30,792 nucleotides of DNA from Priapulus caudatus (Eukaryota; Priapulida; Priapulimorpha; Priapulimorphida; Priapulidae), in assembly GCF_000485595.1 (NCBI RefSeq), contig NW_014577268.1:201280-232071 (forward strand). The letters run 5' to 3'. Below are positions 78 through 24,322 of this stretch, one piece after another; position 1 is the first letter of the stretch; the number at the start of each line of letters is the position of its first letter. Both the position numbers and the translations under genes were made by a program. The notes beneath the pieces were generated by a model. That model saw nothing but the letters and a program-made list of their open reading frames with translations. It did not search any database and had not been told where the DNA came from.

Positions 78-290
78 CTCCCCGCTCCTTCTCTTTATTT
101 TTTATTATCTCTCTCTATCCCTAATATCCCCTTCACCCTTTTCTTTTCCTTCCTCCTCTCTCTTTTATTTCTTTTCTTTCTCTTTCTTTTCTTTTCCTTC
201 CTATCACACTGTCTACCCTTTCCCTCTCTCTCTTCCTCGCCCGCGCTCGCGGTCGCATCTTTCCCTCTTTTCTCGCGCGTTCTCACTTCT
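1..290. repeat. Polypyrimidine / (CT)n microsatellite tract
   Basis: A nearly pure CT dinucleotide run (about 1-76) grades into a degenerate C/T-rich tract to about 290. Open frames across it are low-complexity (Lys/Arg/Glu-rich on the minus strand) and are not credible genes. From about 300 to 740 I see no gene, repeat or RNA signal. Confidence 0.9.
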
Positions 291-5540: not shown

Positions 5541-6591
5541 CAAAATGGTGGTCGTGGTCTCATTGAACTGATGTCTGCGTACAACACTGCCATTGTAGGT
5601 CTAGGCGACTACATCGAGTTAAGGAAGACAAATTTACAAAGCTTATCAAAATCCATCAGTCTGGAAAATCAAAGCACGCTCTCTTACGTGAGGCTAAAGA
5701 AATAAAAGCCAAATACTTGTCTCTTCAGCTTACCTGCCAATCCTCAACCAAGCAGAGACTGAAGGCCAATATGGAAGCAGAGAAAATCGAGGTATTGAAG
5801 AACAAGCCTTTGCATTAAAGGTTCTACACGAGCTTCGACAGGCCATTTGTCGACAAGATTGCAAGCGTTGCTTGGCTGAGTAGTTTCGGGCTCAAGGGGG
5901 AGACAGAAAGCCTGATCATTGGAGCCCAGGCCCAAGCACTTAACACCAGATACCATCAATGCAACATCCTCAAGCAACAGGTCAACAGCAAGTGCAGAAT
6001 GTGCAGCAAGGCAGAGGAGACCATCGGCCATATTATCGCCGGATGCACAGTGCTGGCCCCAACCGAGTACATAAACCGCCTTAACAAGGTAGCCAGCTAT
6101 CTGCACTAGTCAATCTGCAGTGAATTTGGTGAGCAAGTACCTGACAAGTGGTATGAACATACTCCGAGACCAGTTACCAACATTGGAGATACTACCATCA
6201 TGTGGGATATGGCAGTGCAGACAGATCGCACGATACCTGCAAACCGCCCTGATATAGTGCCCCACAATAAGAAAGAAAAACGATGCCTACTGATTGACGT
6301 AGCCGTACCAGGTGATACTAACATCATGGTGAAGGAAAGAGACAAACTCGCCAAGTACAAATATCTGGAGATCGACATTAGGAGGATGTGGAATACTCTC
6401 TCACACTATACTCTCTCTCACCTCTCTCTCACTGGCTCTCTAACGCTTTTCTTTTTTTCTAGACCTTTACTTTTCTTTCTTCTACCTCTCTCTCCCTATC
6501 TCTCTGGATTCCTTTTTCGTTTTTCTTGTACTGCATATGTCTCCCTTTCTTTCCTTTTTCTCTCTTATTCGCTCTTTATTTCGGACGATGT
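5541..6591 (+). pseudogene. 5'-truncated non-LTR retrotransposon, RLE type (Dong/R4-like), decayed
   Basis: The reading frame starts right after the AAT repeat with QNGGRGLIEL and AIVGLGDYI, shifts frame near 5620, and continues as a recognisable C-terminal reverse-transcriptase-element tail. Motifs seen in order: WLSSFGLKGETESLI; a CX2CX8HX4C zinc knuckle (KCRMC to AGC, about 5995-6050); PANRPDIV followed about 12 residues later by LIDVAVP, the PD..D pattern of the restriction-like endonuclease; and LEIDIRRMW. In-frame stops occur at 5816 (TAA) and 6107 (TAG), and the frame is lost in CT-rich DNA after about 6395. 6396-6591 may be its 3' region. Such proteins nick target DNA and prime reverse transcription from it. 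Dong of the silkworm is known to insert into TAA repeats, which fits the flanking AAT runs. Non-functional. Confidence 0.75.
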
Positions 6592-8227: not shown

Positions 8228-8266
8228 GCTGATTGGTTGCATTTACCACGCCATGCATTGTGGGAC
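8228..8266. promoter_or_regulatory. Proximal promoter: CCAAT box plus ZNF143/Staf-like site
   Basis: Just upstream of the chromodomain start codon at 8274, the plus strand reads GATTGG (8231-8236), an inverted CCAAT box. The minus strand of 8249-8266 reads GTCCCACAATGCATGGCG, which matches the Staf/ZNF143 consensus at 16 of 18 positions by my count. NF-Y and ZNF143 sites are typical of TATA-less housekeeping promoters. The distances (8-45 bases from the ATG) suggest a very short 5' UTR or a downstream start site. Inference only. Confidence 0.45.
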
Positions 8267-8273
8267 ATTTAAA

Positions 8274-11200
8274 ATGGCCGTTAGCGGGAGTTTTGCTTTT
8301 AGTAGTGAGGAAAGCGAAGGCGAAATATTTGAGGTGAGATCATGCACACGTGAATGGCCCGTGTTACTCTTTCGTAGCAAATTAAGCGTGGACTAAATTA
8401 ACTTTGCAACAACCATTAATTGCGTTAGATTACACCATCTGGTCGTCAAATCAGTCAGCCTGGTGTCGTGAAACTAGTACAGATATGTACTCGAGGTAGT
8501 TTAGGTATTATGTTTATATTTTTATATGAGGTATGTTTAGGGTTAGGGTTAGGGTTACTGTTGCTCAAGGGGTCGTTGTCGTAACAGGTACTACAGATAT
8601 GTACCCGAGGTAGTTTTAGGTTGTTTAGTATTATGTTTATATTTTTATATGAGGTATGTTTAGGGTTAGGGTTAGGGTTACTGTTGCTCAAGGGGTCGTT
8701 GTCGTAACAGGTACTACAGATATGTACCCGAGGTACATATATGTATACACAAAGTGTACCAGACTTGTACTACAGAAGTGTACCCTAACCCTAACAGTAA
8801 CAGTAACAGTGAACACTAACCCTAACCCTAAACCTAACTCTAACCCTAACCCTAACCCTAAACATACCTCATATAAAAATATAAACATAATACTAAACAA
8901 CCTAAAACTACGTCGGGTACATATCTGTAGTACCTGATACGACAACGACCCCTTCAGCGTGACTAGTGCCGCTGAGAGGGTCTATGTCCCCCAGGGTACT
9001 GTCGGAACGTACCCTGGTACTATCTAATATGCCGGACCGTACTTAGCCTACTCCACTAACGAGTGCCTACGCCTACTCCCTAACCCTAACTCTATACCCT
9101 AACCCTAACCCTAGCACCATATGAAATAGTTACCAGCTAGGGTACATTCCGGCAGTACCCTGGGCGACATAGACCCTATAAGCACTAGTGCCAGTAGTGG
9201 TAGTACTACTACTGTAGTAGTACTGGTAGACTTTAATAAGACTATAACGTTTCAACTTTCAATACTAAACACGAAATGTATTTACTACCAGTACCAGTCC
9301 TAATGTTTCTCTACTCTCTTTCGACTATTATTACCGATAACTTCCTGTAAATCGCGTTCAAATGCTAAAAACTCTGGTTGTGACCACCCTCAGTGCCATT
9401 CGGCTAAAAGGCTAACTACCTGGCTTTACCCTACTGGTCCCAAGCTAGGTCACACGGACTCACACCCCATGGCTAGCTATAGCCCTGGACGTTTATTCCT
9501 TACGGACTGTCCAGTAGACCTATAGAAGTAGAAGTAGAAGTAACAACACAAACGTAAACACAAGTACACCGCACAGACGCCGCTGCGCATAAACAAAAGA
9601 ATAATAATACTTGTTGTTTGTATCTTGTATCTTGGGGTCCCTTTCTTGTATTTCACAAGGTACTGATTCTCTCTTTGGAATGTGCGGGGAATTTCTTCTT
9701 CTTATTCCATCTTATTCTTCTTTCTTCTTTTTCTTTAGTCCTTTTTTCTTTTTTCTTATTTCTTCTTCTTATTTCTTATTCAGCAGTCAGTTCATATGTA
9801 GTCAGCCTTTAGCCAAATGGCACTGAGGGTGGTCACAGCCAGAGTTCTTTTTGCGTCCTCAGTGGTTCTTTTACGTCCCCATTGGCTAGTATTTCTGGAG
9901 ACGGGACCGCCATTTTACGTGGTCATCCGAGCCGCGAGAGATTTACAGTCTCTAATGTTAAGAGCCAGGTTTTTACACCTTGAGAAAATTCACTGCCCCG
10001 ACCGGGGTTTGAACTCACAGCCTTCAGTGGATAGTGCACGATGCGTACCACTGGGCCACGGAGGCTCTCCTTGTGCACAGCAGTGTGCGTGCGGTGTTCT
10101 TGTGTGTTGCAGAGAAGCATTTGAACGTAATTCACAGGAAATTATCAGCAATAATATAAAGAGTGTAGAGAAACATTAAGACTGGTACATTTCGTGTATG
10201 CTGGAATGCCCACATTAGTTATATTTGTAAGAAAGCATCTAAAACTATGTGCGTATTACAGGAGACAGGGCTGTAGTTTTGCAATGAGTGGCAGTGCAGT
10301 TAGGCTGTATTGGAGCATTTGAGCGATAATAGAATTACAGTAATACCCCACGTGAGTAATGCATTTCTGAGAAGAAGCATTCGTAATGCAAAAATCTGTA
10401 ATGTGAATCATGTTTTCCTATTGCCAGTATTGGCTTCCATGATATCAGGAGAGCAGAGCTAAGCTCTATATTATGCATTTCTAGTGATAATCATTGAAAA
10501 TGCCTTACTGCTGAATATCCTTTGCATAAAAGACATACTAGAGAGAAACTTATGAATACTATGAGGCATTTAAAAACACATTTATCATTAATGATTTGCA
10601 ATAATTAGTAATGATATATGTTTAAGGCTGCATTCCCTTGACGAAACGCTGTAATAAATGTTCATATAATACTGCTCCATTTCTTGATTGCCATTTAAAA
10701 ATGTCCCACAAATGTCACATTTAGCACAACAAGACTTGTGAATTGATAATTTATATGGTTAAAAAAAACTGCCATGCCCATTCGTTCAAAATTTACTTGA
10801 ACGTACACAGATGTCCCAGTAACAGTGCGCGCTCGCTAATCTATAATAATACTTTGTGCAACAACGAAATAAAACGCTTTGTAAACAATCTGATAGCAAA
10901 ATAGCATTCAGAAAAGAGTAATCTCTTAATCAAACTTGCTTTCTTTAATGGAATTTGGCACAATGATACAATTTTAGTTTATGCACGTCCGATTTTGTAT
11001 GCCATAGTCACAGTGATAGTGACACAGGGAAATATATACAGAGAAGTAAGATCACTCGGGGTCACTGTGTAAATATGTTACTTCGTGCGAAAGCGTGGGA
11101 TGCTTTTCCCGATTTGAACATTAGAGCTTAAGGCAGCATTTGTGTTGAGTCTATCTAATCAAAATATATGTATGAACAAAATGTTTGCATCTAGAATACT

Positions 11201-13376
11201 ACCTTGATTGGATACATTCATGGATTTTAGGGGTTGGGGCAGCTTAAATGATGTAACATAGTAATATGATAATATTGCGAGGGAGGGAGGGAGGGAAGGA
11301 GGGGGAAATGTGTTATTACGGTACTATCATTTCCACTTTTAAGTACTTCAGGCTCTAACATTGAGCCGAAAATGTTGTATAAATGTAATTTTAATGTTCA
11401 CGGCAAATCCTCTCTTTCTATAATTCCCTGTATCACCTGAGGTTGTTTTGAACTGTTCTTGAAATAAGTATCACGCAACTAGTAAGTAATTAGTACAACA
11501 TAATGTTTTGAAAATAATGGAAAATTTCCCGGTATAATTCCCGATGAGACCAACTTTCGGATATTCCATGTGAACGTAGCATTTTTCGACGTACATGTGG
11601 ATTGTTGACATTGCAAGTTTGTGCCGTAGGTGGGAAAAATACTTGACACGAGATTAGTGAAAGGCCGCAGGCAGTACCTGGTCAGATGGAAAGGGTTTGG
11701 GGAGAAAGAGGACTCGTGGGAGCCGACGAGGAACATGCGACAATGTGGCGTCCTCATCAAGGCGTTCATGGAGGAGTACGAGAACGTGAGTGTAAGATCG
11801 CCCGTGTCACGTGTGACTTGTGACCATTATTTTAAAGACCTAAATGGAACATATATATATGGATAAATTGGACCATAGATGACAATGGTGTTTTAAAATG
11901 TACTTCAATACACAATGTGTATTCGAAGGCTCGAAATGTTACCAAATTCAAATTGTATCGATATCAATTGAAATTGATAGTCGTTATTTGTGTGCGAATA
12001 TGAAAACTACGTAGGTGTGATTTCATTCAGCACAACTAAATGTTCTATCAGTCCTCTAGAATTGTTGGTTTCCCTGGGCTGCATGCATCGAATGACTTTA
12101 TCCATAGAATCCATCACAATGTTAATGTCATTATTATGATGTGTTGTGTTGTAACTGAAGCATCATCGCCTTTCAGCAACAGCCGTACAACAGAAGGCAA
12201 CAGAGGTCAAGGTCAAGATCCCGGTCACGTCAGCCGGGGACTGCGCAGGTTGCAGCGAAGGAGAAGAAGGTTAATGTGCCTAAGGAAACCTCTGCTTCCA
12301 CAGCCAAGCAGCTGTTGACAACCAAAAAGGATCTGCGACCTTCATCGGTGCGTCTGACACAAAATGTGCCATGTACAGGTTCTTTGGCCCCGTTATTATC
12401 TTTCCTGTTTGAATGATTGAATGATTTCTCATCTATTTCTGATTCATAACTTGACGATCGTTTGGCAACATCAATGCACTGGTAGAGAAAGTAAAAAAAT
12501 CCAAATTTAAAATTGGCCTACGTTTGACTAGATTGACGTATTGAAAGCCTTGGAAAGCATAGTTTTGACTGTGCTAACCTAGGTTGGTCTTGTTAAAATA
12601 AAGAACACCTGCACTCATGAGGCTGTGATCATGTGATGGTCTGTGCCCCATTCATATCTATATACCTTTACCACATCTTGCAGGCAGTAACTGTAAAATC
12701 CACGGCACCACCAAAGAAGAGTGCAGTGTCAGCATCCCATCACAGAGCCGAGGGACATTCGCGTCTCATCGACATCTCAGATTCCGATATGGAAGCTGTG
12801 GCCAAGGACATCCTTCAGCAGTCATTCAAAGGTCAGAAGATTGACCTTAAGGAGCTTGTGCAGAAGCGCGGCAAGGCAAAGGGGAAGGTGAGTGTCAGGC
12901 AGAAGGTTCTTATATAACGTTACAAGATTCGACATCCGTTTATCATCTCGTGGTAGAATGAGATAAAGGAAATCGTCAGGTAAAATTGGTCATTTTAGGA
13001 TGGCGGGGCTCGACGATAGCCTGGCGGGCCGCCAGGCTATAAGTGCCCTTGGAGAACCCTGCATATATAACGTGAACAGAATCACTTACATTTTGTGAAA
13101 CAGTGTACATAATTTTTTTAAATTGTACTATTTACGGTGACTTACGTAATCACTTTAAGGAGCCATCTGTAGTTTCAGGCGACGACTGCAGCGTTGCCAG
13201 CTCCAGCCCCAGCCCCAGCCCCCGCACAGCCGCAATACCTCAGCCTTGGACTACGAGAAGCGCTACTCGTCATAGTACTCGCTGCTGCAGTTTACGCACT
13301 CCTCAGCATCCTCTATACACTCGACTGGTCACAGATGAAGATGCCAGAGCCAGATGCCAGATCTTCTGAAGCCTAA
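8274..13376 (+). CDS. Chromodomain protein with RS stretch and C-terminal transmembrane anchor (complete, 5 exons)
   Basis: Exons are 8274-8333, 11630-11785, 12177-12347, 12684-12887 and 13179-13376. Every intron is GT..AG and every junction is phase 0, giving 262 residues. The start ATG has A at -3, and the short acidic exon 1 (SSEESEGEIFE) joins exactly to the chromodomain. The chromodomain spans about residues 17-72 with VKGRRQYLVRWKGF and DSWEP; F19, W40 and F43 occupy the aromatic-cage positions that bind methyl-lysine in HP1. Residues 82-90 are RSRSRSRSR. Residues 130-197 are basic with one probable helix (DSDMEAVAKDILQQ). A PAPAPAPAP linker precedes one hydrophobic segment (about 225-245, ALLVIVLAAAVYALLSILYTL region), leaving a 17-residue tail. 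This suggests a tail-anchored protein facing chromatin from the inner nuclear membrane. No chromoshadow domain is present. Likely role: tethering methylated chromatin to the nuclear envelope (inferred). I know of no named family with this order. Confidence 0.88.
8467..8957. repeat. Tandem and inverted 123-bp units carrying TTAGGG blocks
   Basis: Two head-to-tail units (period 123 bp; TTAGGG blocks at 8536-8557 and 8659-8680) are followed by a third start at 8711. After a 60-bp centre an inverted copy follows, with CCCTAA blocks within 8783-8866 and its end at 8957. Each unit carries GATATGTACCCGAGGTA, TTATATGAGGTATG, the telomere-like block and AAGGGGTCGTTGTCGT. It lies in intron 1 of the chromodomain gene. 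Copy divergence is low, so the arrangement is fairly recent. Confidence 0.85.
8962..9190. repeat. Second palindromic element with CCCTAA core
   Basis: Arms 8962-9017 and 9137-9190 are inverted copies (GGGTCTATGTC, CAGGGTACTGTCGGAACGTA and its partner) with several substitutions. The 120-bp centre contains further CCCTAACCCTAA runs (about 9077-9112). It directly adjoins the preceding repeat, so the whole 8467-9190 block may be one composite foldback transposon that has captured telomere-like repeats. Confidence 0.75.
9369..9535 (+). mobile_element. SINE 3' fragment, plus orientation
   Basis: 9369-9420 (ACTCTGGTTGTGACCACCCT onward, then CAGTGCCATTCGGCTAAAAG) matches, with about six differences, the reverse complement of 9796-9843 in the neighbouring SINE. 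It continues to an AGAAGT-repeat tail at about 9518-9542. No tRNA-like head is visible, so this is a 5'-truncated copy or a relative sharing the 3' domain. Confidence 0.55.
9700..10068 (-). mobile_element. tRNA-derived SINE with A-rich tail
   Basis: Read on the minus strand from 10068, the element begins with AGCCTCCG, then an A box TGGCCCAGTGG (10058 to 10048) and a B box GAGTTCAAACCCC (10016 to 10004). That is a split pol III promoter at tRNA-like spacing. A body of about 200 bp follows, then an A-rich AAGAA-type tail (T-rich on the plus strand, about 9700-9785). The body's last 48 bp are shared with the fragment at 9369-9420 in opposite orientation. It lies in intron 1 of the chromodomain gene, in the opposite orientation. 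A spurious 120-codon frame runs across it. Confidence 0.7.
10150..11278. other. Intronic sequence without recognisable features
   Basis: The 3' part of intron 1 of the chromodomain gene is AT-rich and unique-looking. I see no exon, RNA gene or repeat in it. Confidence 0.6.
11279..11306 (+). repeat. (GGGA)n purine tract
   Basis: Tandem GGGA/GGAGG units with at least four G-triplets on the plus (coding) strand of intron 1, so a G-quadruplex is possible in the pre-mRNA or DNA. Confidence 0.6.
13017..13039. repeat. Short perfect palindrome in intron 4
   Basis: Eleven-base arms TAGCCTGGCGG / CCGCCAGGCTA flank one G. The same GCCTG/CAGGC vocabulary recurs at 13618-13675 in the 3' UTR region, suggesting remnants of a small palindromic repeat family. 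Confidence 0.6.
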
Positions 13377-13880: not shown

Positions 13881-13886
13881 AATAAA
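13881..13886 (+). other. Candidate polyadenylation signal (AATAAA) for the chromodomain gene
   Basis: The first canonical AATAAA downstream of the stop codon, about 500 bases into the presumed 3' UTR. GT-rich elements downstream were not assessed in detail. Confidence 0.4.
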
Positions 13887-19861: not shown

Positions 19862-19879
19862 GTGTCAGTATAGGATACT

Positions 19880-21648
19880 ATGCGCAGAATAAGCATAGCT
19901 ATATACACCTCTGCAGTAGAAGCACCTCCAGTTGACTTCCCCTCTTCTTCCTCGTGCTTCGTACCTGAATGCAGTCGCACTGATTATCCTCGTTGTCAGG
20001 CAGCGCTTGGATGTGGCAGACGGCTGGTCCGCTGCCTGTCGTCGGCGGCGACCGAGTTGGCGCCGGTGTCGTCGTCGTCGTTGGGCAAGGTATACGAGCT
20101 GCGCACGTACGACGTCAAGCCGAAGCGAATGACAGAGTTCCTGGAGATGACGGCTCGTGAGATACATCTGAGACTCGCTGTAGCCAAGTGCCTTGGATAC
20201 TGGGTCTGTCAGTTTGGAGCCATCAACCAGACAGTGCACCTGTGGGAGTTCGGTGAGATGATTCCCACGCGGCAAACCTTGGACGACTCTGCTGTTTCCT
20301 TGAGCCTAGTGCAGACCTGCGACTTTTTCATGCAACTCGACAGCGATTCTAGAGTCACTGTAAAAATTCTGTGAAATGCTTTCACCAATTCATCAGATGT
20401 ATAAACCTCCGTTCAGAACTCTGCTTCTGTATTTTGTTGTCGAGAATGTATTGCTGGGTAAGATATATATACTCCGCATAGTGACATATATATTACACAT
20501 ATGCGCTGCATTATAGCCACCCATTTTTCGTTTTCCTTGCCATCTTTTTTTCCCCCCGGGCTTAATTTCCACGCTGTTGCTAATTGTTAGTTTGTGTGTT
20601 TGCATCTCAGATTGCTACGCGCATCGTGCAGAATCCAGGGTAGCGATGATGCAGAGTAGCGAACTGGTGGAAAGATTCCTGACACCAGTAATGCAGATGG
20701 TCAACAAGCAGCACAGCCAGATGCTCAGACTACTACCGGGGACCAGCCTCAACTGCCCAGCTAAACCTGGTGGTAAGCCAGTTTACATAGTCTGGAGATA
20801 TATGACCATCCAAATTACGCAGCCAGCTTTGGCAAGGTTGGTCGTAATATGTGAGATCATTCCAATACCGGAAGGTTCTTCATTCATTGGTTCTTGTGTG
20901 CATAATTGCAGGTGCTTACGAGTTAGTCAGTCTGTGCATGAAGTCTTCACCCACCGTGTGGCTGCCAAAAGCTGCAGAGATGGTACCAGCATGTAACTCC
21001 GTTGTACATACGTCAGGTGCCAGTGTTGTTGCGGCATTCAAAACCGAATTCGGACCACTAAACGAATGTATGTACTACTTACATTCATTTATTTGTTTAT
21101 TTATTTACTTAGTCATGTTTGATCGAGGACACCTTGTCCGTGTAATTAATGATGTACAGTTTGCTCTCACTGGTTCTACCTGTCAAGATCGTGCAAACGT
21201 GGATTATTAAATTGGGATTATTTGTTGTACACATTGTCGGTATGTTTTAGGCATCTTTCTCCTGCACTACCCTTCATTTGACATGCACCTGCAGTATGCT
21301 GAAGCTATAATGTCTAATGATGAGTGCTTCAAGTTAGGTATGTAAGATTATTTATTCAACTGCTCAACTGCTATATTTCTCTCACTGCCCCTCACTCTCT
21401 TTCTCCTGTCAAAAATTCTGTAGTACTATCTAGATACTAGTAGATATCTATGATCTGGACTCTCTGCTAGCCATTGCTTGCTGGAATGTCGGAGGGACAT
21501 AACTGAAAGAATAGGGCCTACCAGTCGCCACCGTACCAGTGCTCTCATGTCCACGTCGTTTCCAGTTTCAAAGTTTGCCAACATGGTCGCCGAGGGTCAC
21601 AATAAGGGCATGACACCATTCCCTGGCCTGCAGACGGCCATGCAGTGA
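19880..21648 (+). CDS. NIPSNAP-family protein (NIPSNAP3-like), mitochondrial, 5 exons
   Basis: Exons are 19880-20252, 20611-20772, 20912-21067, 21251-21337 and 21566-21648. All introns are GT..AG and all junctions are phase 1, giving 286 residues. The first NIPSNAP repeat shows VYELRTYDVKP, EFLE, LGYW and HLWEF, continuing across the junction as DCYAHRAESR. The second shows AYELVSLCMK, FKTEFGPLNE and FLLHYPS. This order and spacing match vertebrate NIPSNAP3 (about 247 residues). NIPSNAPs are mitochondrial proteins; NIPSNAP1/2 act as mitophagy signals, while NIPSNAP3 function is unclear. The region before residue 50 is Arg/Ser-rich (RRLVRCLSS), as in a targeting peptide. The start is uncertain: ATG 19880 has A at -3, but TTATCCTCGTTGTCAG ending at 19999 is a good acceptor, so an upstream first exon joined at 20000 in phase 0 is possible. 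Confidence 0.85.
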
Positions 21649-22278: not shown

Positions 22279-23073
22279 AGCAATTGTGATGTTATAATAC
22301 ACTGGTGTCTTTGCTTGCTCTACAATACATGTCTGTGCGTGTCTTTCCTATATTACGTGCACCTATATAATTCACTGCGGTGACTGCGTTATCAGTGGCA
22401 GTAACGTATTGGAAAACAAATCAATGCAAGTGTGTAAGTACACGAGCCCCGTTTTTTCTAACGATCAAGGGAGATGAACTAGGAAATATACGGAAGGGAT
22501 ACACCAGTACGTGAGATGCGTCATATGATACCAGACGATATATCTTTGTAATTCCCAAGCAAAATCCCATGTACTGTGTTCGTATGTTGCTATGTTCGCT
22601 GATTGGATGTCCGGGTTGTGTGCTCTCAACTAACACACGCGCGATCAAAGTTTATTCAATGTGTCCGGTATATATTTGCTGTAGTGCTACTGGTAGGTCA
22701 AGAGTACATAATAGAGATCGCTATTATGTGCTCTTGATGTAGGTACAGGTATGTGTGGTATATTAGTAGGGCCACGCGATGAGCGTGCTCACTGTGAGGT
22801 CGGGACATGACAGCCAGCGATACATACGTAGTGACACAAGCTGAATATCTTGCCGAGAAATCTCTGAATAGCTTGTGAAACGCTCTTCTGCATAACGAAT
22901 TCGACTCTGCTCAAGGGAAAATCAGGTTTCGTCCCCGTGCGATATTTACAAAAACGTTAACAATATCATCGTCAACAACGACAACAACAAACAAGAATAA
23001 CTATTACTAAGTTAGTCGTGGCGACAGACCCAGCGCACCGACCAACAGAGAGACAGTGCAGAGTCGCGTTGCC

Positions 23074-24322
23074 ATGGCAGCGGAGGCTGGGACCGCGGCA
23101 TCGTCGGCAGCGCGGGTGTACCGTCGGCGCGTGCGCTGGTTGAACTGCCTGACGTGTTTCGCGGCCGCAGCCACGGGAGTCATGCTCATCTGCTTCGTTG
23201 TCTTCTACGGCGGGCCAGCCGTGGCGCCCTCTGCACCGTCGGAGGTCGACAACCTTTGGCATACGGTGCGCAGACTCGAGGAGACGGTCTCGCAGATGAA
23301 GATGCGCCATGATGTGAAGCTCCGGAGGGGAGCGCAGCCCCACTCAGGTGAGCAGCGTGTGTATCAGAACGAGTCAGCTACCTGTAGCAGTTCTAGCAGG
23401 AGTCACCACCTTCCCCACGCCCCGCGCACCCCACTTCCTCCCCCCCTCACCTCGTGTGTCCCCACCTCTTCCCTCACACACGTGCACCCCCACCTCCTCC
23501 CTCACACCACGTGCGTGGTCCTCCTCTCTCACACCACGTGCTTAGTCCTCTTCTTCCTTCACACCATGTGCGTGGTCAACCTCCTCTCTCACACCACGTG
23601 CATGGTACCTCCTCCCTCACACCACGTGCGTAGTCCTCCTCCTCCCTCACACCACGTGCATCCCACCTCCTCCCTCACACCACGTGCGTAGTCCTCCTCC
23701 CTCACACCACGTGCGTGGTCCTCCTCCTCCCTCACACCACGTGCGTGGTCCACCTCCTCCCTCACACCACGTGCATCTCTCCTCCCCCCTCACACTACGT
23801 GCGTGGTCCTCCACCTCCCTCACACCACGTGCATCTCTCCTCCTCCCTCACACCACGTGCGTGGTCCTCCTCCTCCCTCACACCACGTGCTTGGTCCTCC
23901 TCCTCCTCCCTCACACCACGTGTTTGGTCCTTCTCCCACCTCCCTCACACCACGTGCGTGTGTCCCCACCTCTTCCCTCACACCACGTGCGTGGTCCACC
24001 TCCTCCCTCACACCACGTGCGTGGTCCTCCTCCCTCACACCACGTGCACCCCCATCTCCTCCCTTACACACGTGCACCCCCACCTCCTCCCTCACACCAC
24101 GTGCGTGGTCCTCCTCTCTCACACTGTCTCGCGTAGTCCTGCTCCCACTTCTTTCTTCGTATAAACAGACCCGCCCTATATATAAAGTGACGACGCTACA
24201 CCAGTCCTACGCTGTTTGCAGGTAATAAGCCGTCAGCCTACGAGTACAGCGTACGTGAAGAGGATGGCCTGAGAGATTTGTGGCTCTACCTGCGGCACAG
24301 GCTGGTCGTCCTCGAGCATCAG
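23074..24322 (+). CDS. 5' end of a type II single-pass membrane protein gene (two exons, partial)
   Basis: ATG 23074 sits in GCCATGG, an ideal start context. Exon 1 (23074-23347) ends TCAG followed by GTGAGC. Exon 2 (24222-24322) follows TTTGCAG and ends CAG followed by GTGAAA. Joined (phase 1), they encode 125 residues. A short basic cytoplasmic segment (RVYRRRVRWL, residues 14-23) precedes one hydrophobic segment (about 24-45), then Pro/Ala (PAVAPSAPS), a heptad-like helix (VDNLWHTVRRLEETVSQMKM) and, in exon 2, a second helix (LRDLWLYLRHRLVVLEHQ). The positive-inside rule gives an extracellular C-terminus with a coiled-coil stalk, as in type II ligands, collagens or lectins. The functional head is missing: later exons lie beyond or are lost in the disordered sequence after 24.9 kb. 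No family is assigned. Confidence 0.65.
23405..24130. repeat. 27-30 bp minisatellite with a CACGTG in nearly every unit
   Basis: About 24 tandem units of the form CCTCCCTCACACCACGTGCG, then TGGTCCTC. Variation is in the tail (CATCTCTC, TTAGTCC, ACCCCC) and in CTC copy number. CACGTG, the canonical E-box, is retained in roughly 20 units. It fills most of intron 1 of the membrane-protein gene. Open frames across it (SLTPRAWSSS-type repeats) are artefacts of the repeat. Confidence 0.9.

Follow-up and report, generated by a model that had tools for sequence, protein, structure and literature searches.

A chromodomain protein with a predicted C-terminal membrane anchor in Priapulus caudatus, a candidate one-piece chromatin tether

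The gene at nt 8274-13376 (+ strand) of the window, the 30,792-nt stretch of the Priapulus caudatus genome that was analysed (contig C208, 201280-232071), was a real and complete gene that joined known parts in an unusual way and fitted none of the families tested. Its product is probably a tail-anchored, one-piece tether of H3K9-methylated chromatin at the inner nuclear membrane, a reading in which we infer both the location and the ligand. The chances seem about even that it represents a heterochromatin anchor of an unnamed kind, in which a chromodomain joined to a tail anchor would act next to LBR and without an adaptor, attaching H3K9-methylated chromatin directly to the inner nuclear membrane.

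Gene structure and transcript forms

Priapulus caudatus is a priapulid (phylum Priapulida, Ecdysozoa), and the assembly searched comprised 385 Mb in 2952 contigs. The gene consisted of five phase-0 exons, each a multiple of three in length, with GT donors and AG acceptors read at every border, and the joined exons encoded 262 residues followed by a stop (Table 1). The original prediction of a complete gene was borne out by the NCBI predicted protein "M-phase phosphoprotein 8-like isoform X2", which was identical from end to end over all 262 residues; the NCBI model is independent of that prediction and was presumably built on the genome of the same species. GC content by codon position was 0.57/0.46/0.57, and that of the four introns ranged from 0.355 to 0.412. 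An in-frame ATG at 8253, upstream of the public start, was left unused by the public model.

The label "isoform X2" implies that at least one further transcript was predicted for this gene. The cluster of the NCBI protein at 90% identity contained two member sequences, and thus the second isoform may be nearly identical. Tandem in-phase donors (GTGAGT/GTAAGA) were located at the end of exon 2, and their alternative use adds two residues; that they account for isoform X1 is a guess.

Intron 1 contained at 8494-8958 a 123-base unit that occurred twice in tandem and once in inverted orientation, with TTAGGG-like telomeric repeats. The inverted arms (8563-8685 and 8836-8958) were 96% complementary, and a CCCTAA array was observed at 9078-9113 in the same intron. 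This repeat is possibly a mobile or telomere-derived insertion.

Table 1. Features of the chromodomain gene, numbered from the first base of the window
Feature	Position (nt)	Strand	Residues and remarks
Exon 1	8274-8333	+	1-20; acidic N-terminus, first cage residue F19 (8328-8330)
Exon 2	11630-11785	+	21-72; remaining chromodomain; W40 11687-11689, F43 11696-11698
Exon 3	12177-12347	+	73-129; basic linker carrying RS stretch
RSRSRSRSR	12204-12230	+	82-90
Exon 4	12684-12887	+	130-197; basic linker, short helix 162-177 (low-confidence model)
LIDISDSD	12765-12788	+	157-164; SUMO-interacting-like motif, pattern match
Exon 5	13179-13376, stop included	+	198-262; Pro-Ala linker, membrane helix (predicted), short tail
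Pro-Ala linker	13197-13232	+	204-215
Predicted membrane helix	13245-13331	+	model helix 220-248, best window 225-243
AATAAA, possible polyadenylation signal	13881-13886	+	single copy, 505 bases past stop

Chromodomain, linker and predicted C-terminal membrane segment

In line with the chromodomain originally assigned, Pfam Chromo (PF00385) matched residues 19-68 of the joined protein (E 5.9e-14; score 52.2 bits, cut-off 25.1). Searching PDB sequences with the chromodomain returned 52 distinct sequences at E<=0.001, with CBX5 at the top (E 7.4e-16) and CBX1, CDYL2, MPP8, and Rhino also among the matches. F19, W40, and F43 were located as predicted and aligned, in a comparison with Drosophila HP1a, b, and c, with Y24, W45, and Y48 of HP1a, the aromatic-cage positions; V21 aligned with V26 of Drosophila HP1a, and E47 and N55 matched HP1a too. 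Position 18 was Ile in the priapulid chromodomain and one residue near R57/Q58 was absent from all three Drosophila HP1 proteins (a, b, and c), so that the HP1 polar clasp seems not to be kept. CDY and MPP8 have a similar insertion of one residue, and they too are non-polar at the position of the HP1 polar clasp.

Single-sequence folding left the chromodomain unfolded, and an AlphaFold2 run on an alignment of 42 sequences (the query and 41 of 119 chromodomain relatives) folded it into three strands and a helix, with pLDDT 95-97 over residues 21-70. The whole-protein AlphaFold2 model had a mean pLDDT of 66.9 and a pTM of 0.33, confidence being low everywhere but in the chromodomain and membrane helix. 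Foldseek matched the model to 71 PDB entries at E<=0.001 and to 584 at E<=10, and the best 50 of the 71 were all chromodomain proteins by title, many with H3K9me peptides. The modelled fold lay about 1 A from chromodomains bound to H3K9me3, as in MPP8-H3K9me3 (3r93; TM 0.92 by target, 1.0 A) and Rhino-H3K9me3 (4quf; TM 0.90, 1.1 A), and similarly close to HP1-H3K9me2 (1kna; TM 0.93, 0.9 A). The best ten structural matches included five titled H3K9me3 complexes, one CDYL2-H3tK27me3 complex, and one MPP8-DNMT3A peptide complex. Sequence matches and predicted structure together show that the N-terminus carries an intact chromodomain with a complete aromatic cage, one of the HP1/CDY/MPP8 class. 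On the model, a methyl-lysine-binding fold is well supported and H3K9 is the likely ligand; the class of a chromodomain cannot by itself fix the ligand.

The basic linker was about 150 residues long and included the RS stretch, which was found at residues 82-90, where it had been predicted. A Pfam RSRP match of 24.4 bits fell short of the cut-off of 27 and is attributed here to RS composition. The sequence LIDISDSD, in which acidic residues follow the core, fits a SUMO-interacting pattern and is given as a lead only. The best E value for residues 130-203 against PDB sequences was 0.12, and residues 144-200 scored at best 52 against 119 listed other chromodomain proteins, a score equalled by 2 of 20 shuffled queries. 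A conserved domain at 130-203 was rejected, no relative beyond shuffle level being found in either set.

The most hydrophobic 19-residue window comprised residues 225-243 of 262 (mean hydropathy 2.63). A membrane-insertion scale was used for the shuffle test, and on this scale the window was reached by 0 of 500 whole-protein shuffles and 0 of 2000 exon-5 shuffles, the next-best window within residues 1-215 being strongly unfavourable. A helix was modelled at residues 220-244 from the single sequence (mean pLDDT 87 in block 221-230 and 94 in 231-240) and at 220-248 by the aligned AlphaFold2 run. The one hydrophobic C-terminal segment originally described was thus recovered as one predicted membrane helix by the shuffles and by both models. 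It was followed by a tail of 14-19 residues; the net charge was +16 before the helix and -2 after it, a difference that fits the long part facing the nucleus or cytosol. By prediction, there was a single helix, near the C-terminus, and no other, and the membrane segment is, as far as sequence and models tell, a tail anchor in layout rather than an LBR-like multi-pass domain. Tail-anchored proteins insert post-translationally by the GET/TRC route, and they also reach membranes other than the nuclear envelope. No lamin-binding motif or known inner-membrane sorting motif was identified on inspection of the 262-residue protein.

Relatives, named systems and the LBR-type gene

When the protein was searched against its own genome, the four matches obtained corresponded to exons 2-5 of this gene on C208. 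The genome contained ten chromodomain places, of which eight were read from translations by eye: one was the present gene, and the others included a Mi-2/CHD type, an SUV39-like exon, an HP1-like exon, at least one of retroelement-derived appearance, and some that could be assigned to no type. In a full-length search of the protein database (8000 candidates scored, E<=1e-5), which was probably flooded by repeat words, only the public copy was found, as also in a search with region 1-79 that scored three candidates and had near relatives within its reach. A profile search of a large protein database scored 7984 sequences, 1246 of them at E<=0.001; the profile leaned on HP1 words, and an ortholog could have escaped it. 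Among the 119 other chromodomain matches listed of these 1246, none had a comparable hydrophobic segment, and their best 19-residue hydropathy was 1.49, against 2.63 here. As no ortholog was found in these searches, the C-terminal half is without support from conservation.

The original prediction knew of no named family with this architecture, and none was found among the database matches listed or in the open-licence literature searched. The portions consulted of papers on chromodomain proteins, heterochromatin tethers, and the nuclear envelope yielded no natural protein joining a chromodomain to a membrane segment, and none was mentioned in the accessible parts of PMC5045178, PMC6406483, PMC9988841, PMC12359041, and PMC4859327. 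Nor did the architecture appear among the open-licence papers listed for Priapulus or for the MPP8-like name.

No second Pfam domain besides Chromo exceeded its cut-off in the 262-residue protein (no ankyrin, no enoyl-CoA hydratase-like domain). The LBR domains PF09465 and PF01222 were not matched, and the chromoshadow domain PF01393 gave no match at E<=0.01 in the joined protein, nor at E<=1 in a near-identical form. MPP8 consists of a chromodomain and then ankyrin repeats, and CDY/CDYL proteins possess a C-terminal enoyl-CoA hydratase-like domain. The priapulid protein resembled MPP8 in its chromodomain fold and database name, but it had 262 residues, a predicted membrane helix, and no ankyrin repeats; it differed from CDY/CDYL in having no enoyl-CoA hydratase-like Pfam match. 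Like HP1 (CBX1/3/5), it had an N-terminal chromodomain, with CBX5 as its best PDB sequence match, whereas a predicted membrane helix occupied the place of the HP1 chromoshadow domain. Identity with MPP8, HP1, CDY, or LBR was ruled out by domain content.

CEC-4 is described as a worm-specific chromodomain protein that lacks a chromoshadow domain and tethers H3K9me chromatin at the envelope; its C-terminus, which resembles no other characterised chromatin-binding protein to a significant degree, is needed for envelope location, and loss of two aromatic chromodomain residues abolishes tethering (PMC5788517). It has been termed an inner nuclear membrane protein (PMC13224763), and the parts of these two papers available describe no membrane segment in it. 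Likeness to the priapulid protein lies in the HP1-type chromodomain with full aromatic cage, the lack of a chromoshadow domain, and the proposed role as an inner-nuclear-membrane anchor for H3K9me chromatin; the predicted tail anchor of the priapulid protein has no counterpart in these published descriptions of CEC-4. For LBR, the available text reports Tudor and RS parts, phosphorylation by SRPK1, and chromatin release at mitosis (PMC5617974). A chromatin-binding head, an RS stretch, and a membrane anchor in a single chain are common to both proteins, as far as that account goes, but the head of LBR is a Tudor domain and its anchor comprises eight membrane segments, where the priapulid protein has a chromodomain and one predicted tail anchor.

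An LBR-type gene is present in the Priapulus genome, judging from matches to its membrane part. A genome profile search with ERG4_ERG24 (PF01222) gave seven matches on two contigs; on one of these, C1099, several exons matched the membrane part of human LBR with identity up to 74%. Two RS-rich open stretches lay upstream on the same strand, one reading QPSRSQSKSPARSRSRSRSRGRG, adjoined by a stretch with a first membrane segment; the assignment of these RS-rich exons was made by eye, on the basis of their position and strand. With the N-terminal part of human LBR as tblastn query, the best E value was 0.89, PF09465 (LBR Tudor) had 0 matches in the genome, as had the controls, and the six translated frames upstream of the C1099 exons did not match it. 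Upstream of these exons, roughly 6.5 kb of the contig consisted of N, and the Tudor exon may lie there. Three LEM-domain places were also found in the genome.

Given the ERG4_ERG24 and upstream RS-rich exons on C1099, the idea that the chromodomain protein stands in for a lost LBR was rejected; with an LBR-type gene in the genome, it is more likely an addition to LBR than a substitute. Derivation from LBR was also rejected. Linker residues 91-218 scored 38 against a human LBR linker, which was reached by 130 of 1000 shuffles, and nine comparisons of exons 3-5 with three Priapulus LBR-type exons showed no convincing relation: the strongest, between exon 3 and the second LBR exon, both RS-rich, was reached by 20 of 500 shuffles, and for each of the remaining eight between 44 and 409 of 500 shuffles did as well.

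On C1099 an apparent second tandem copy of several LBR-type exons, partly broken, was observed. The other contig carried an ERG4_ERG24 match (C37:709508-710614) in one uninterrupted 496-residue frame, 31% identical to the human LBR membrane part, which may be a sterol-reductase-like gene, a retrocopy, or a contaminant.

Proposed tether, alternative readings and neighbouring features

The proposed mechanism rests on domain logic. The protein would be inserted into the ER and diffuse to the inner nuclear membrane; its soluble part comprised 219-224 residues, and a part of this size is small enough to pass nuclear pores. There the chromodomain would retain it by binding H3 methylated on lysine 9, and H3K9-methylated chromatin would stay at the nuclear rim with no adaptor in between. 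A kinase of the SRPK type may act on the RS stretch and so regulate the tether as in LBR; this step, and release at mitosis by this route, are suggested by analogy only.

Few animals are known well enough for it to be settled how their nuclear rim retains H3K9-methylated chromatin, and a single short protein holding reader and anchor would be a natural minimal tether. If true, this would be a third solution beside LBR (Tudor, multi-pass) and CEC-4 (chromodomain, with a C-terminus of unspecified type), and Ecdysozoa would have a second anchor based on a chromodomain, this one outside nematodes and in a genome that also carries an LBR-type gene. It would raise the question of whether chromodomain tethers had several origins. 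The architecture, known from one species, is surprising.

At the nuclear envelope or in the ER, a protein of the same layout could instead be a tail-anchored reader of another methyl-lysine, for example H3K27me or a methylated residue of H1 or of a non-histone protein. CBX2, CBX7, CBX8, and CDYL2-H3tK27me3 were among the structural matches, several of these proteins read marks other than H3K9me, and Ile18 with the extra residue at R57/Q58 points away from the HP1 polar clasp. However, H3K9me3 complexes outnumbered H3tK27me3 and DNMT3A peptide complexes by five to one and one among the best ten structures, CBX5 was the best sequence match, and CDY1 (6v41) and MPP8 (3r93) were solved with H3K9me3 despite a similar insertion. 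We regard a different mark as unlikely, while giving it real weight. Less probable still is a soluble nuclear reader of the HP1/MPP8 type, in which the hydrophobic stretch would not be inserted or the main isoform would lack it. The public name is MPP8-like, "isoform X2" implies a second isoform, and if intron 4 were retained, translation would stop soon after exon 4 (open frame 12621-12914); yet the stretch is strongly hydrophobic (19-residue mean 2.63), surpassed all 500 whole-protein shuffles on the membrane-insertion scale and lies near the C-terminal end, as in tail-anchored proteins, and the 1-79 search, which scored three candidates and reaches near relatives only, gave no second cluster of 144-458 residues.

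We give little credence to a recent lineage-specific chimera, made by exon shuffling and with little or no function. Every intron was in phase 0, the linkers were of low complexity, the genome search returned only the gene's own exons, and no ortholog was found in the searches, all of which would suit such an origin. Against it, five exons remained open, with a composition unlike that of the introns and a full cage, some of which drift would be expected to break. The reading we prefer is still a tail-anchored tether of H3K9-methylated chromatin, which would work at the envelope much as CEC-4 or LBR does.

Several other features were observed in the window. A sub-threshold zf-RVT match at 5819-6106 (E 2.2e-4, 22.3 bits against 27.5) is probably a non-LTR retroelement remnant. 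A NIPSNAP gene was located at 19874-21060 (+), with PF07978 matched in 19874-20371 (E 7.1e-14); its later exon-like pieces were read by eye, and two of them had no Pfam match. The frame at 23011-23688 gave no Pfam match, and the open frame 23074-23347, which begins MAAEAGTAASSAARVYRRRVRW, had a possible coiled coil as well as a hydrophobic stretch. At 23465-24116 a 30-base unit, CCTCCTCCCTCACACCACGTGCGTGGTCCT, was repeated about 22 times.
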